Source: Flavobacteriaceae bacterium
GTDB lineage: Bacteria; Bacteroidota; Bacteroidia; Flavobacteriales; Flavobacteriaceae
Length of the DNA: 64,000 bases
Direction: 5' to 3'
NCBI GenBank assembly: GCA_017852075.1
Contig: JAFMLQ010000001.1
Location: forward strand, 62,001 to 126,000
Below the pieces are notes generated by a model. It was not told the DNA's origin. It searched no databases and saw nothing but the letters and a program-made list of their open reading frames with translations. Of the stretch, positions 33,973 to 56,554 are shown piece by piece. Positions within the stretch are counted from its first letter, which is position 1. Every line of letters begins with the position of its first letter. The translations under genes and the position numbers were made by a program.

Positions 33973-35883
33973 TTATTCTTTAACTTCTTCAAAATCTACG
34001 TCCTGAACATCGTCACCATCTTTCGATTGAGATTCGGACTGAGGTGCTTCGGAACCAGCATCAGCCGCTCCTCCTGCCTCTGCTTGGGCTTTATACATCT
34101 CCTCAGAAGCGTTTTTCCAAGCTTCGTTGATCGCTTCTAACGATTTGTCAATCGCTTCCGAATCTTTGGATTCATGAGCTTTTTTCAAATCTTCTAAAGC
34201 TGATTCAATCGGTGCCTTTTTATCGTCAGATAGCTTGTCTCCAAACTCCTTCAATTGCTTTTCGGTTTGAAAAATCATCTGATCGGCACTATTGAGTTTT
34301 TCCGCTTCTTCTTTGACTTTTTTATCGGCATCGGCATTGGCTTCTGCCTCTTTTTTCATTTTTTCAATTTCTTCCTCGGTCAGTCCTGAGGAAGCTTCAA
34401 TACGAATGTCTTGAGATTTATTTGTTGCCTTGTCCAACGCACTCACCTTGATGATTCCGTTGGCGTCGATATCAAAAGTAACCTCAATTTGTGGTGTTCC
34501 TCGTTGTGCAGGAGGAATACCATCTAGGTGAAAACGTCCAATGGTTTTGTTGTCCGAAGCCATAGAGCGTTCACCTTGAAGCACATGAATCTCTACTGAG
34601 GGCTGATTGTCTGCAGCAGTAGAAAAGATTTGTGATTTTTTACTCGGTATGGTGGTGTTGGACTCGATAAGTTTGGTCATCACCCCTCCCATCGTTTCAA
34701 TTCCTAAAGAAAGTGGTGTGACATCCAATAGCAGAACATCTTTAACATCTCCCGTTAGCACCCCTCCTTGAATCGCAGCACCAATAGCAACCACTTCATC
34801 TGGGTTTACACCTTTAGAAGGTTTTTTTCCAAAAAACTTTTCTACTTCTTCTTGAATGACTGGAATCCGAGTGGATCCTCCTACAAGTATTACCTCATCT
34901 ACATCTCCAGTAGAAAGGCCTGCATCATCCAAAGCTTTTTTCACAGGCGTCATAGAACGTTTTACCAGATCATCTGCTAATTTTTCAAAATTAGCTCGGG
35001 TCAGGGTCGTAACTAGGTGCTTAGGGCCAGAATCGGTTGCCGTTACGTAGGGTAAATTAATCTCAGTCTGGGTGGATGAGGACAATTCGATTTTTGCTTT
35101 TTCTGCTGCTTCTTTTAATCGTTGGAGAGCCATGGGATCTTTACGCAAGTCAATTGCCTCGTCTTTTTGGAAAGTTTCTGCCAAAAAGTCGATGATCACT
35201 TGGTCAAAATCATCACCACCTAAGTGAGTATCTCCATTGGTCGATAGTACTTCAAAAACACCATCACCCAATTCGAGAATTGAGATGTCAAAAGTTCCTC
35301 CTCCAAGGTCATAAACCGCAATTTTCTTATCGGATCCTCCTTTGTCTAAACCATAAGCAAGTGCAGCAGCAGTGGGTTCGTTTATGATACGCTGTACCTT
35401 CAATCCTGCAATTTCACCTGCCTCTTTAGTTGCCTGACGCTGGGAGTCATTAAAGTATGCAGGGACAGTAATCACCGCCTCTGTTACATCTTGACCGAGG
35501 TAATCCTCGGCTGTTTTTTTCATTTTTTGCAAGGTCATGGCAGAAAGTTCTTGAGGACTGTACAAACGTCCATCGATATCCACACGAGGTGTATCGTTAT
35601 CGCCTTTTACCACTTTATAAGCCACTGTTTTTACATCACTACTTGACTCGGAAAACTTGTTTCCCATAAATCTTTTGATGGATGCTATGGTTTTGGTCGG
35701 GTTTGTAACCGCTTGACGCTTGGCAGGATCTCCAACTTTAATTTCTCCACCTTCTACAAAAGCAATGACTGATGGTGTGGTACGTTTTCCTTCTGCATTT
35801 GGAATAACGACGGGTTCATTGCCTTCCATTACAGAGACACATGAATTCGTAGTTCCTAAATCGATTCCAATTATTTTACTCAT
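33973..35883 (-). CDS. dnaK: DnaK, Hsp70 chaperone
   Basis: 636 aa ATP-driven chaperone. Nucleotide-binding domain: [57 protein letters not shown] and [14 protein letters not shown]. Substrate-binding domain: [24 protein letters not shown]. The lid and tail end in the acidic [13 protein letters not shown], the DnaJ-interacting type of tail. Stands alone (grpE-dnaJ are 18 kb away) but shares an upstream promoter pattern with them. Length is normal. Confidence 0.98.
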
Positions 35884-35910: not shown

Positions 35911-35952
35911 GACAAGCATTATGCCATATTGATAAAACTGACAGCATGACAG
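35911..35952 (-). promoter_or_regulatory. dnaK promoter: sigma-54-like -24/-12 plus paired TGTCA boxes
   Basis: Reading the reverse strand, CTGTCATGCTGTCA (two TGTCA boxes whose starts are 8 bp apart) is followed after 12 bp by TGGCATAATGCTTGTC. The latter resembles the sigma-54 core TGGCAC-N5-TTGCA, with GG-N10-GT in place of GG-N10-GC. The -12 end is about 28 bp before the dnaK ATG. The same arrangement precedes grpE at 55597-55636. Confidence 0.6.
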
Positions 35953-51775: not shown

Positions 51776-52939
51776 TTATTTAGGTGCAAATTGAACAATA
51801 TTTTCTGTACTAATTGGATTGTCTCCAAGAATCATCAATCGCTCAATGACATTGCGCAATTCTCTGACGTTTCCCGTCCAAGGATAGTTATTTAATTTTT
51901 CAAGAGCCTCTTTAGAAAATGTTTTTCTTTCCAATCCTTGCTCTTTAGAGAGTAAATCAACAAAATGTTCAGTGAGTAAGGGTATATCTTCTTTTCGGTC
52001 TCCTAAAGAAGGAACATGAATCATAATCACCGCTAGTCGATGGTACAAATCTTCTCGGAATCGACCTTCTTCTATTTCTTTTTTCAAATCCTTATTTGTA
52101 GCGGCAATCACACGCACATCTACCGAAATGTCCTTTTCATTTCCTACCCGTTGTATTTTTCGTTCTTGTAAAGCCCTCAGTACCTTGGCTTGAGCCGTCA
52201 AGCTCATATCTGCAATTTCATCCAAGAAAAGCGTTCCTTTATTTGCCGCTTCAAACTTTCCAGAACGATCTTTGACGGCTGAGGTAAAAGCTCCTTTTAC
52301 GTGACCAAAAAGCTCGCTTTCAATTAATTCAGATGGGATTGCTGCACAATTGACTTCAATAAAATTTTCTGCATTTCGATCGCTTTGTTGATGCAATTGA
52401 TGCGCAACTAATTCTTTTCCAGTTCCATTTTCTCCTGTGATTAATACACGTGCATCGGTTGTAGCAACTCGCGCAATCATATCAATTACCTCATTAATGG
52501 CTTGGCTTTCTCCAACGATATTGTATTTCTGAGCTACTTTACGCTTTAATTTTTTATTCTCAGAACGCAACGATTTATTCTCTAGTGCATGACGTACTGC
52601 GGTAAGCAATCGATTTAAATCAGGGGGCTTTGAAATAAAGTCATAAGCCCCTAACTTCATAGCCTCTACAGCAGTTTCGACATTTCCATGTCCTGTGAGC
52701 ATTATAAAGGGAACCCCTATCTTTTTACTGTTCGTGTTTTGAAGTACTTCAATTCCATCCATCTTTGGCATCTTGATATCGCATAGTACCAAATCGTACT
52801 TATACTTTTCTATCATTGCTAAACCTTTTTTACCATCCTCAGCTTCTTCGACCTCGTATGTTTTAGCTTCATCACTGAGAATACGGACTAGTACTCGGCG
52901 GATAGGTTCTTCATCTTCTATGATTAAAATCTTTGTCAT
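51776..52939 (-). CDS. Sigma-54-type response regulator without DNA-binding domain
   Basis: 387 aa. Receiver domain (1-120) with phospho-Asp in DLVLCDIKMPKMDG and IMLTGHGNVETAVEAMKLGAYDFISKP. Then an AAA+ activator domain (about 140-385): Walker A GENGTGKELVA, the sigma-54-contacting loop ELFGHVKGAFTSAVKDR (GAFTSA instead of GAFTGA), GTLFLDEIADM and an Arg-finger region. It stops at NVRELRNVIERLMILGDNPISTENIVQFAPK with no Fis-type helix-turn-helix, so it may act without its own enhancer, as FlgR of Helicobacter does. No kinase gene is adjacent. Confidence 0.92.
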   Translation of the reverse strand: MTKILIIEDEEPIRRVLVRILSDEAKTYEVEEAEDGKKGLAMIEKYKYDLVLCDIKMPKMDGIEVLQNTNSKKIGVPFIMLTGHGNVETAVEAMKLGAYDFISKPPDLNRLLTAVRHALENKSLRSENKKLKRKVAQKYNIVGESQAINEVIDMIARVATTDARVLITGENGTGKELVAHQLHQQSDRNAENFIEVNCAAIPSELIESELFGHVKGAFTSAVKDRSGKFEAANKGTLFLDEIADMSLTAQAKVLRALQERKIQRVGNEKDISVDVRVIAATNKDLKKEIEEGRFREDLYHRLAVIMIHVPSLGDRKEDIPLLTEHFVDLLSKEQGLERKTFSKEALEKLNNYPWTGNVRELRNVIERLMILGDNPISTENIVQFAPK

Positions 52940-53784
52940 TGTAATGCCTTAGGGGGATTTAAAAAACTAATCGTGCGCTGTGGAAAAGGAATTTGGATAC
53001 CTTCTTTTTGAAATGCTCTAAAAATAGAATAGCGCATATCACTTTTTACAATATTAGATTCAAAACTACTGTTTACAGCAAAAAAGATTTGAAAATGCAA
53101 CGCATTATCTCCAAAATCTTCAAAAATCACAAAAGGTTTAGGATTTTCAAGTATGCTTTTGTTTTCATTTGCCAATTGTAACAATATGGAGGTTACCTGA
53201 TCAATATCACTGTCATAGGCTACTCCAACAGCCACACTTTCTTTGGTAATCACACCATTTTCTGTCCAATTAAATAGTGTAGAAATTAAAAACTTATGAT
53301 TTGGGATAATCAATACTTTATTTTCACGAGTAACAGCCCTTGTTGTTCGAAGCTTGATGTTTTCAACTTTCCCTACTTGCCCTTCCACTTCAATGATATC
53401 ACCTACATGAACAGACTGATCTACGAGTATAAAAATTCCTGAAATGATATCTTGAATAAAAGTTTGTAGTGCTAGCCCCACACCCACCAAAAGTGCTGCA
53501 GAAGCGGCAAATATTGCCGTAACATCAGCTCCAATATTCTGTAGTGTAATCAGAAGAACAATGATGTATATAAAGTAATTGAAAAATGAAAAGACACTTT
53601 TGAACTTTGTTTTGGCATCATTGGATAGGGTACGATAAATGATTTTCCTAAAGAGCTTTAGAAAAAATGAAGTGAGAATAAAAACCAGAAGAATAATCAA
53701 TATCGTTTTGGGTGTAAACGATACTGATTTTCCAATGGAAAATTGATGATTGAAAAACTCGAGTATTTTGTTAATTAGATTCAT
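52936..53784 (-). CDS. MscS-family mechanosensitive ion channel
   Basis: 282 aa. Three hydrophobic helices (about 26-50, 67-87 and 91-113), then the conserved pore/upper vestibule: LLVGVGLALQTFIQDIISGIFILVDQSVHVGDIIEVEGQVGKVENIKLRTT and PNHKFLISTLFNW. Releases solutes upon hypo-osmotic swelling. Overlaps the response regulator by 4 bp, so the two are made together. Confidence 0.93.
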   Translation of the reverse strand: MNLINKILEFFNHQFSIGKSVSFTPKTILIILLVFILTSFFLKLFRKIIYRTLSNDAKTKFKSVFSFFNYFIYIIVLLITLQNIGADVTAIFAASAALLVGVGLALQTFIQDIISGIFILVDQSVHVGDIIEVEGQVGKVENIKLRTTRAVTRENKVLIIPNHKFLISTLFNWTENGVITKESVAVGVAYDSDIDQVTSILLQLANENKSILENPKPFVIFEDFGDNALHFQIFFAVNSSFESNIVKSDMRYSIFRAFQKEGIQIPFPQRTISFLNPPKALQ

Positions 53785-53924: not shown

Positions 53925-55037
53925 TTAAGCAAACATATCCTTCACTTTCTCAAAAAAGGATTTGTCTGATTTTTCGGGATGCGGAATAAAATTAGTATCT
54001 CCCTGCATTTTTTCGAAAAATTGACGCTGTTCTTTGTTTAACGTTTTTGGCGTCCAAACATTCACATGAACTAATAAATCTCCACTTCCATAGCCGTTGA
54101 TGCTCGGCAAACCTTTTCCTCTAAGACGGAGAGTTTTTCCAGACTGAATTCCAGGCTCTAGTTTTATCCTAGCTTTACTATCGAGTAGATTAAGATCTTT
54201 TGAGATACCTAAAGCGGCTTCTGAAATACTAATATATAAATCAAAATGCAGGTGATTCCCCTCTCGCACGAAGGTATCGTGAGGCAATTCTTCAATCAAA
54301 ACAAGCAAATCGCCTGATATGCCATTGGCTGGAGCTTCATTTCCCTTACCACTAACCTTAAGCTGCATTCCTTCTTCTACCCCTGCAGGTATTTTAATGG
54401 AGACGGTTTCTTCTTTTCGAATCATGCCCTGTGCATCAGTACCTGAAGGCCGATTTAAAAGTGTTTTACCCCCTCCTCCACAAGCGGAGCACACAGCAGA
54501 GGTTTGCATACGGCCCAAAATGGTATTGGCAATTTTCATCACTTGCCCTTTTCCATTACAGGTTGAACAAGTTCCATATTGAACTCCTGGAGCTTGAACT
54601 TTACGAGGTACCTTTATTTTCTTCTCTATACCTTTTGCAATTTCCTCCAAGCTAAGTTTAACTCGAATTCGCATATCTGATCCTTTGGCTCGTCGCTGAC
54701 CTCCACTGGAGAAACCACCACCAAAACCTCCGCCTCCAAAAGCACTCCCGAAAATATCTCCAAATTGACTGAAGATATCGTCCATATTCATACTGCCGCC
54801 AAAGCCTTGCCCCCCTTCGAAAGCGGCATGTCCAAACTGGTCGTATTTGTTGCGCTTCTCTTGGTCACCTAAAACCTCATAAGCTTCTGCAGCTTTTTTA
54901 AAATTCGCCTCAGCAGCTTTATCATTTGGATTTTTATCGGGGTGATATTCAATTGCCTTTTTTCTGTAGGCTTTTTTGATTTCTGCCGCAGTTGCGTTTT
55001 TAGAAATCCCTAATATTTCGTAATAATCTTCTTTCAT
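53925..55037 (-). CDS. dnaJ: DnaJ, Hsp40 co-chaperone
   Basis: 370 aa. J-domain (DYYEILGISKNATAAEIKKAYRKKAIEYHPDKNP with HPD), Gly/Phe-rich linker (FGGGGFGGGFSSGG), but only part of the classical four-repeat zinc centre: CSTCNGKGQ and CSACGGGGK are two CxxC pairs, so the protein has one zinc-binding site rather than DnaJ's two. C-terminal peptide-binding domain follows. Stimulates DnaK. 2 bp after grpE. Confidence 0.94.
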   Translation of the reverse strand: MKEDYYEILGISKNATAAEIKKAYRKKAIEYHPDKNPNDKAAEANFKKAAEAYEVLGDQEKRNKYDQFGHAAFEGGQGFGGSMNMDDIFSQFGDIFGSAFGGGGFGGGFSSGGQRRAKGSDMRIRVKLSLEEIAKGIEKKIKVPRKVQAPGVQYGTCSTCNGKGQVMKIANTILGRMQTSAVCSACGGGGKTLLNRPSGTDAQGMIRKEETVSIKIPAGVEEGMQLKVSGKGNEAPANGISGDLLVLIEELPHDTFVREGNHLHFDLYISISEAALGISKDLNLLDSKARIKLEPGIQSGKTLRLRGKGLPSINGYGSGDLLVHVNVWTPKTLNKEQRQFFEKMQGDTNFIPHPEKSDKSFFEKVKDMFA

Positions 55038-55039
55038 AC

Positions 55040-55570
55040 TTATTGTCCTACAACCACTTTGGGATAACGGATGATTCGGTCACCCAACTGGTAACCCACC
55101 TCTACGATATCAATGATTTTCCCTTTATCCTCCTTTTTAGGCGCTGGAATTTGTGTAATGGCCTCGTGAAGCTCTGCATCAAACGAATCACCAATTTTTT
55201 CTTCTGTTTGTTTCAATCCATTGGTTTTAAGTACTTCGGAAAATTTGTTGTATATCAATTGTATTCCCTCCTGATCTATACCACCCTTTGCTTTTTCCAT
55301 CTGCTGATTGGCTCGGTTAAAGTCATCCAAAACAGGAATTAGAGCACTTATAACTTCTTGATTGGCTGTTTTAAAAAGTTCAATTCGCTCTTTAGCTGTT
55401 CTCTTTTTAAAATTTTCAAATTCAGCGAAAAGTCTAAGGTATTTGTCTTTTTCTTGTTCAATTTCCTTTTTTAAGGCATCGATTTGATCCGTAACTTTGG
55501 ATTTTATATCCTTTTTCTTGGTTTCTTTTTTTGATTTAGAATCCTTCTGTGGCGCTTCTTTTTTTGTCAT
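55040..55570 (-). CDS. grpE: GrpE, DnaK nucleotide exchange factor
   Basis: 176 aa. Lys-rich disordered N-terminus, long helix (EIEQEKDKYLRLFAEFENFKKRTAKER with the conserved FENFKKR), helix bundle and the beta-wing QLGDRIIRYPKVVVGQ. Releases ADP from DnaK. First gene of grpE-dnaJ; a sigma-54-like promoter lies 27 bp upstream. Confidence 0.96.
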   Translation of the reverse strand: MTKKEAPQKDSKSKKETKKKDIKSKVTDQIDALKKEIEQEKDKYLRLFAEFENFKKRTAKERIELFKTANQEVISALIPVLDDFNRANQQMEKAKGGIDQEGIQLIYNKFSEVLKTNGLKQTEEKIGDSFDAELHEAITQIPAPKKEDKGKIIDIVEVGYQLGDRIIRYPKVVVGQ

Positions 55571-55596: not shown

Positions 55597-55636
55597 TGCA
55601 AAAGTTTTGCCATGATGAAAAAATGTCAAAATGTCA
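55597..55636 (-). promoter_or_regulatory. grpE-dnaJ promoter: sigma-54-like -24/-12 plus paired TGACA boxes
   Basis: Reverse strand TGACATTTTGACA (box starts 8 bp apart), 11 bp, then TGGCAAAACTTTTGCA. GG-N10-GC spacing and the TTGCA end fit the sigma-54 consensus TGGCAC-N5-TTGCA closely. The -12 GC is 27-28 bp before the ATG. Same layout as upstream of dnaK. Confidence 0.65.
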
Positions 55637-56554
55637 TATTTTATGTTTGGCAACCTCTTCCATTGCCTCCTCAATATTGGGAAAGGAAAAGACAAATCCG
55701 TTTTTTAACACCTTGTCTGCACTAACCCAATGACTATCCAATACGAGACTACTCATTTCTCCCACTGTAAATCGAATCAAAAACTTAGGAATTGGGGGTA
55801 GAAAATAAGGGCGTTTTAAGGCTTTAGACAGCGCTTTGATAAACTTTGTTTGAGAAACTGGATGGGGTGCTACAGCGTTGAAAGCCCCTTCCCATTCAGC
55901 ACTTGTTGCTGCTATGAACAAACCTACCACATCTTTGATATGGATCCAAGATTGTCCTTGTTTTCCATTGCCAAAAGCAGCTCCTAAACCCAATGCTGTA
56001 GGGATTCTTAAAGGTCCTAATACTCCTCCTTGGGCGCTTAGCACCAACCCAATTCGCAATTTGGCAACTTTGATATCAAGAGATTTAAATTGATCCACTT
56101 CTCGTTCCCATGAAATCACTACATCCTCCATAAAAGAATTGGGGTGTACTGGAGTATTTTCATCTACTGTATTGTCAAAGTCAGGGGGATAAATTCCAAT
56201 TGCGGAAGCAGCAACTATTTGCTTTACTTGATGAAGCGTTTTAAGCTGTTCTATACTCGAAAGAAGCAAACGGGTAGAATCTATTCTACTGGAACGAATT
56301 TGTTTTTTATTCTTCGAAGTCCAAAGCTTTGAAATACTTGCTCCTGCCAAGTGAATTATGGTATCTACCCCTTCAAAACAAGCATTGTCTATTTCTGATT
56401 GAGAAGGGTTCCAATAAAATCCTTTTGCACCATTGATATGAGTAGCTTTATTTTTATTGGTTGTTAAAAAATGAATCTTAAATCCCTCAGATAAAGCCTT
56501 GTGCACTAGTGCGCGTCCTACCAAACCTGTAGCTCCTGTAATAAGTAGTTTCAT
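55634..56554 (-). CDS. TIGR01777-type NAD-dependent epimerase-like protein
   Basis: About 306 aa, SDR superfamily. N-terminal NAD site KLLITGATGLVGRALVHKAL; then YWNPSQSEIDNACFEGVDTIIHLAGASISKLWTSKNKKQI, typical of the TIGR01777 (YfcH/SulA-like) group; ASAIGIYPP is the Ser-containing active-site strand and the C-terminus has the DUF1731-like PFLIR region (PKFLIRFTVGEMSSLVLDSHWVSADKVLKNGF). I use the ATG at 56554 (second), matching the family. Function unknown. Confidence 0.88.
   Translation of the reverse strand: MKLLITGATGLVGRALVHKALSEGFKIHFLTTNKNKATHINGAKGFYWNPSQSEIDNACFEGVDTIIHLAGASISKLWTSKNKKQIRSSRIDSTRLLLSSIEQLKTLHQVKQIVAASAIGIYPPDFDNTVDENTPVHPNSFMEDVVISWEREVDQFKSLDIKVAKLRIGLVLSAQGGVLGPLRIPTALGLGAAFGNGKQGQSWIHIKDVVGLFIAATSAEWEGAFNAVAPHPVSQTKFIKALSKALKRPYFLPPIPKFLIRFTVGEMSSLVLDSHWVSADKVLKNGFVFSFPNIEEAMEEVAKHKI

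Follow-up and report, generated by a model that had tools for sequence, protein, structure and literature searches.

In other bacteria, genes such as dnaK, grpE, groES, clpB and hsp20 are placed under joint control by RpoH, HrcA/CIRCE, HspR/HAIR or CtsR, which do the same job as the element described here but through another sigma class or repressor logic and at other DNA sites. Sigma-54 promoters start transcription about 12 bp past the -12 element, and their expression needs rpoN and an activator. For Flavobacterium psychrophilum, the main text of one study reports mapped SM4 (sigma-54-type) starts for groESL, lon, dnaK, grpE-dnaJ, htpG and clpB and places groESL, lon, dnaK, grpE-dnaJ and htpG in one co-expression cluster; it names three possible activators, none of which is assigned there to chaperones (PMC9723704). 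The text of a 2025 computational survey likewise describes an enrichment of chaperone genes in the sigma-54 regulons predicted for Flavobacteriia and Bacteroidia (PMC12316311). The sigma-54 part of the system analyzed below is therefore not new, having been published for F. psychrophilum.

The dnaK and grpE promoters

We analyzed a 64-kb stretch of Flavobacteriaceae DNA (the window), in which an earlier note had described paired TGNCA boxes, with starts 8 bp apart, upstream of dnaK and grpE on the reverse strand, each followed after 11-12 bp by a sigma-54-like -24/-12 element. The features of the two loci are as follows.

35939..35951, (-): paired box of dnaK, TGTCATGCTGTCA (sequence match, kept in relatives)
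35913..35926, (-): sigma-54-type -24/-12 element of dnaK, TGGCATAATGCTTG (sequence match)
33973..35883, (-): dnaK, 636 aa, HSP70 (ORF and Pfam)
55624..55636, (-): paired box of grpE, TGACATTTTGACA (sequence match)
55599..55612, (-): sigma-54-type -24/-12 element of grpE, TGGCAAAACTTTTG(C) (sequence match)
55040..55570, (-): grpE, 176 aa (ORF and Pfam)
53925..55037, (-): dnaJ, 370 aa (ORF and Pfam)
52936..53784, (-): gene for an MscS-type mechanosensitive channel, located between dnaJ and EBP1 and listed as context
51776..52939, (-): EBP1, receiver and AAA sigma-54 interaction domain, no HTH, GAFTSA

Both box pairs were found with the 8-bp register described. The dnaK element (35951-35913, reverse strand) reads TGTCA TGC TGTCA-N12-TGGCA-TAATGC-TTG and ends 29 nt 5′ of the ATG, and the grpE element (55636-55599, reverse strand) reads TGACA TTT TGACA-N11-TGGCA-AAACTT-TTG(C) and ends 28 nt 5′ of the ATG, so that the distance between boxes and -24 is 12 bp at dnaK and 11 bp at grpE, as claimed. 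The -24/-12 elements are also present at both genes, but the dnaK -12 is TTGT and not TTGC. A GG at -24 and a G(C) at -12, in the arrangement GG-N10-G, occur in both window promoters, in a large majority of groES promoters and in all pattern matches; the C of the -12 element is often replaced by A or T, the base after TTG being A, C or T across homologs. The genome encodes RpoN, and the reading of these sites as sigma-54-type promoters is supported by the -24/-12 layout together with the starts mapped in F. psychrophilum (PMC9723704).

Pfam confirmed the identities of DnaK, GrpE and DnaJ. The dnaJ start lies 2 bp past the end of grpE, and dnaJ is presumably on the same transcript. Downstream of grpE-dnaJ (window 51776-53784), the MscS-type channel gene and the EBP1 gene overlap by 4 bp. 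In the first grpE box (TGACA, 55632-55636), the initial TGA also serves as stop codon for the epimerase gene upstream, which places this operator partly within the neighbouring reading frame.

At either spacing, no sequence in the window other than the dnaK and grpE elements fits the full pattern without a mismatch, and by chance only 0.2-0.3 matches would be expected there even at 3 mismatches. The box pair alone is not enriched, with 7 occurrences found at one mismatch in the 64 kb against 7.7 expected; the significance of the element therefore rests on the combination of its parts and on conservation. The sequence TGGCA-N6-TTG by itself is frequent (100 in the genome against 42 for a reversed control) and is therefore no chaperone marker. 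We rejected an opposite-strand box pair at the grpE promoter (TGTCA..TGTCA then TGGCA, 55624-55661), which is the palindrome already described, seen from the other strand, and has no good -12.

Conservation and downstream genes

The earlier note had proposed checking whether TGWCA-N3-TGWCA-N11-13-TGGCA-N6-TTG marks dnaK, grpE, groES, clpB and htpG in related genomes, and scans of the family, the class and species genomes gave a strongly positive answer. At family level, TGTCA-N3-TGTCA-N6..16-TGGCA occurred in 41 of 151 genomes, compared with 1 match for the reversed control. Nearly all of these matches had a spacing of exactly 12 bp though 6 to 16 was allowed, and nearly all of those for which DNA was retrieved lay 5′ of htpG, dnaK or grpE. 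The window's own genome has TGTCATCTTGTCA-N12-TGGTA-N6-TTG upstream of htpG.

An exact 39-bp pattern with TGWCA boxes was then scanned over 84,980 species genomes and gave at least 120 matches. All but one (L151) of the 80 listed are named Bacteroidota, and the lineages include Flavobacteriales, Cytophagales, Sphingobacteriales, Bacteroidales, Saprospiraceae and others. BLAST identified the downstream gene, among the at least 120 matches, as grpE in 54 cases, dnaK in 32, htpG in 13 and groES in 1. The 20 that remain of those 120 comprise 8 at the edge of the retrieved DNA and 12 that could be read, namely trxA (4), clpB (2), hsp20 (2), lon, a zinc metallopeptidase, a SMODS nucleotidyltransferase and one gene that matched no Pfam family; Pfam was used to verify these types, except that three of the four trxA were assigned by eye only. 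About 110 of the 112 readable matches (among the at least 120) are thus protein-quality-control or thiol-redox genes. When one mismatch was allowed, 73 of 119 class genomes (about 50 families sampled) had a match as against one control match, and every locus that was classified was trxA, htpG, dnaK or grpE, 1 of 27 (L311) being unreadable. The other 46 of the 119 had no match at one mismatch, and sets selected by the pattern therefore overstate how uniform the element is. Outside the class Bacteroidia, a phylum-wide sample gave only three matches, one of them at hsp20.

The groES promoters provide a set gathered independently of the pattern, by synteny with EBP2, the activator gene considered below. 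Here TGWCA stands exactly 12 bp 5′ of TGGCA/TGGTA in 37 of 55 promoters and in at most 3 at any other distance, shuffled sequences giving 0.04. The first groES box is degenerate, usually TGMAA in the family, and keeps the same register. In the window's genome, the region 5′ of groES contains a TTGACA, TTGGCATAGTTTCTG and, farther out, the box-like pair TGACAGGCTGACA. As far as sequence comparison can establish them, the layout of the promoter, its conservation and its gene specificity are demonstrated by these data, and we regard the element as a real, class-wide sigma-54 heat-shock promoter.

Two further placements of the element were observed. It lies 5′ of trxA (thioredoxin) in Mucilaginibacter, Pedobacter and several other class lineages (L178, L191, L238, L250, L293, L294, L316), and in a Taibaiella MAG (L137:2050-2925) it lies 5′ of the SMODS nucleotidyltransferase gene (CBASS-like), possibly a defence gene under heat-shock control.

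The candidate activator EBP2 and other explanations

Two true sigma-54 activators, EBP1 and EBP2, are encoded in the genome (88.9% complete), in which EBP2 is the only EBP with an HTH. EBP2 (P0001) consists of an AAA+ domain with GAFTGA and Walker motifs, which matches PspF, NtrC1, FleQ and ZraR chains, and a C-terminal Fis-type HTH (HTH_8, PF02954); it has no recognisable N-terminal sensor domain, and its linker of about 110 residues contains a conserved EREILYKVLFDMKSDL stretch. The gene order is miaB-EBP2-lptE-(TPR)-secG-groES, and in 54 further genomes groES and EBP2 are at most about 4.7 kb apart. EBP2 was detected in 97 of the 101 family genomes and in 114 of the 119 class genomes, almost always with one match each. 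When nine apparent absences were rechecked, one complete genome turned out to have a cut-off copy, and the others are 69-95% complete. An apparent loss in the complete genome G430 was accordingly discarded, since the match (67% identity, residues 3-122) is cut off beside an apparent assembly gap, within an absurdly long open frame. EBP2 was not found in G394 (95% complete) or in G386, a 91% complete MAG in which the boxes are present; conversely, G363 (0.49 Mb) has no box at up to 3 mismatches, though EBP2 is its sole EBP (G363:C1:150057-151253). The distribution of EBP2 and its linkage to groES are thus documented in the genome sequences, and they make it the best candidate for the chaperone activator.

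The centre bases of the paired box favour TGACA..TGTCA over TGTCA..TGACA by 44 to 12 in hosts and by 44 to 2 in phages, an inverted-repeat bias that fits a symmetric dimer site. The box spans about -51 to -39, around -45; an enhancer so near -24 is unusual, EBP binding sites being typically at -80 to -150. Based on the anatomy and conservation of the sites, from which we infer both the protein-DNA binding and the stress signal, we propose a model in which RpoN-RNA polymerase would bind TGGCA-N6-TTG (-24/-12) and an EBP2 dimer would bind the palindrome-like TGWCA-N3-TGWCA at about -51 to -39. Sensor-less EBP2 might be kept inactive by the chaperones themselves; when misfolded proteins accumulate, it would oligomerise at the box and the promoter would open, switching on dnaK, grpE-dnaJ, htpG and groES-groEL and, depending on the lineage, clpB, lon, hsp20 and trxA. 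The long EBP2 linker may make DNA looping unnecessary, and this would account for the nearness of the site to -24. We give a probability of roughly 0.7 to a class-wide Bacteroidia heat-shock regulon with RpoN promoters and the paired box as EBP2 dimer site.

The same box could instead bind another protein, a dimeric repressor or accessory regulator, at what is still a sigma-54 promoter, with the activator working from elsewhere or from solution. Chaperone genes are often repressed in other bacteria, by HrcA/CIRCE, HspR/HAIR or CtsR; the box is palindrome-biased and sits near -24, where a repressor could block activation, and no other recurrent TGWCA position was found upstream of the host promoters in our set. 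However, the box moves with the -24/-12 element at fixed spacing, EBP2 with its HTH needs a site, the searches, which were aimed at activators, brought up no candidate repressor, and the paired box looks unlike CIRCE or HAIR. An activator at the boxes is favoured over a repressor on two grounds: the genomes encode a conserved sigma-54 activator that has a DNA-binding domain and is linked to groES, and the box tends to a dimer-type palindrome. We consider the other-protein explanation unlikely, if the most serious of the alternatives.

EBP1 would offer an activator of a different kind, a receiver-AAA protein (51776-52939) that acts from solution without an HTH, as is known for FlgR, and its place in the order grpE-dnaJ-mscS-EBP1, about 2 kb downstream of grpE-dnaJ, speaks in its favour. 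It has GAFTSA instead of GAFTGA, though, and would leave the conserved box unexplained; moreover, EBP2 is the sole EBP of G035 (91% complete), yet the box is kept there at grpE and dnaK. We therefore hold this role for EBP1 to be improbable. That the elements are chance likenesses, or ordinary sigma-A promoters with no shared regulation, agrees with the chance-level count of the box pair alone at one mismatch in the window, but is refuted by the way the full element recurs, at a constant spacing and before the same genes throughout the class, with controls near zero, and is further opposed by the SM4 starts given in the main text of the F. psychrophilum study (PMC9723704); we give this explanation almost no weight. 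The element thus points to what is likely a common sigma-54-driven heat-shock circuit with one conserved protein as its activator. Heat-shock control in Bacteroidota, which are not known to use RpoH, would now have a precise operator, a short target list and one candidate activator, EBP2, present in nearly every class member sampled. If this is true, core protein folding in a major bacterial class is governed by sigma-54, a factor generally associated with nitrogen, motility and the cell exterior, and the viral sequences suggest that phages use the same switch.

Phage promoters and comparison with known systems

In viral contigs the exact pattern occurred in 95 stretches; as controls, reversing the boxes gave 6 and increasing the spacing by 5 bp gave 14. 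The 87 readable downstream proteins include 26 Hsp20, 22 Hsp70, 16 small UVR-motif proteins and 2 sigma-70-type factors; one viral downstream match is a portal protein. Across these loci (L435-L529), the element stands before DnaK, Hsp20 and small UVR-motif genes (e.g., L437, L440, L476 and L513), and genes nearby include phage primase, endolysin, SbcCD and phage sigma-factor families. In published megaphages of 634-735 kb, the gene for a related DnaK is preceded by a sigma-54-like core and variant boxes; no such promoter was found upstream of the dnaK genes of Prevotella Lak megaphages. We consider it probable that Bacteroidota phages wire DnaK, Hsp20, small UVR-motif and some sigma-factor genes to the host sigma-54 heat-shock activator by way of this paired-box promoter, so that folding stress during infection would turn on a phage regulon.

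Several features of the viral copies were seen besides. In two phages a sigma-70-type factor lies behind the promoter (L475:12413-13213 and L487:5221-6018), an arrangement that suggests a phage cascade triggered by host stress. A 136-kb viral contig, IMGVR_UViG_3300012920_000022, carries four near-identical promoter cores (L452, L464, L505, L509), which precede genes not recognisable as chaperones. A second box pair is frequent in phages (L435-L529), 20-32 bp 5′ of the first; hosts do not have it.

As far as could be checked, the paired operator, the assignment of EBP2 and the phage use are new and the sigma-54 link is known; neither the paired box nor its activator is mentioned in the openly accessible main texts searched. 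The SM4 promoters of F. psychrophilum resemble the element in their -24/-12 type and in the genes they serve, whereas the main text of that study (PMC9723704) contains no TGWCA pair and no class-wide or phage analysis. For the regulons of the 2025 survey (PMC12316311), the text searched names no upstream activator site for chaperones and states that activator specificity is unavailable for all organisms. The conserved element differs in sequence from CIRCE, the inverted repeat of the HrcA regulon. Chaperone genes are known in phages of Flavobacteriia, and the moraphages and megaphages (LR745206, LR756501-LR756504) are, as here, large Bacteroidota phages with DnaK, DnaJ and Hsp20; the main text searched does not mention promoters that tie these genes to the sigma-54 heat-shock element of the host (PMC12619734). 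Among activators, PspF and other sensor-less sigma-54 proteins are most like EBP2, whose AAA+ domain starts near the N-terminus and which ends in a Fis-type HTH. EBP2 differs from the PspF type in its linker of about 110 residues with EREILYKVLFDMKSDL, in its other targets and in a proposed site that adjoins -24.
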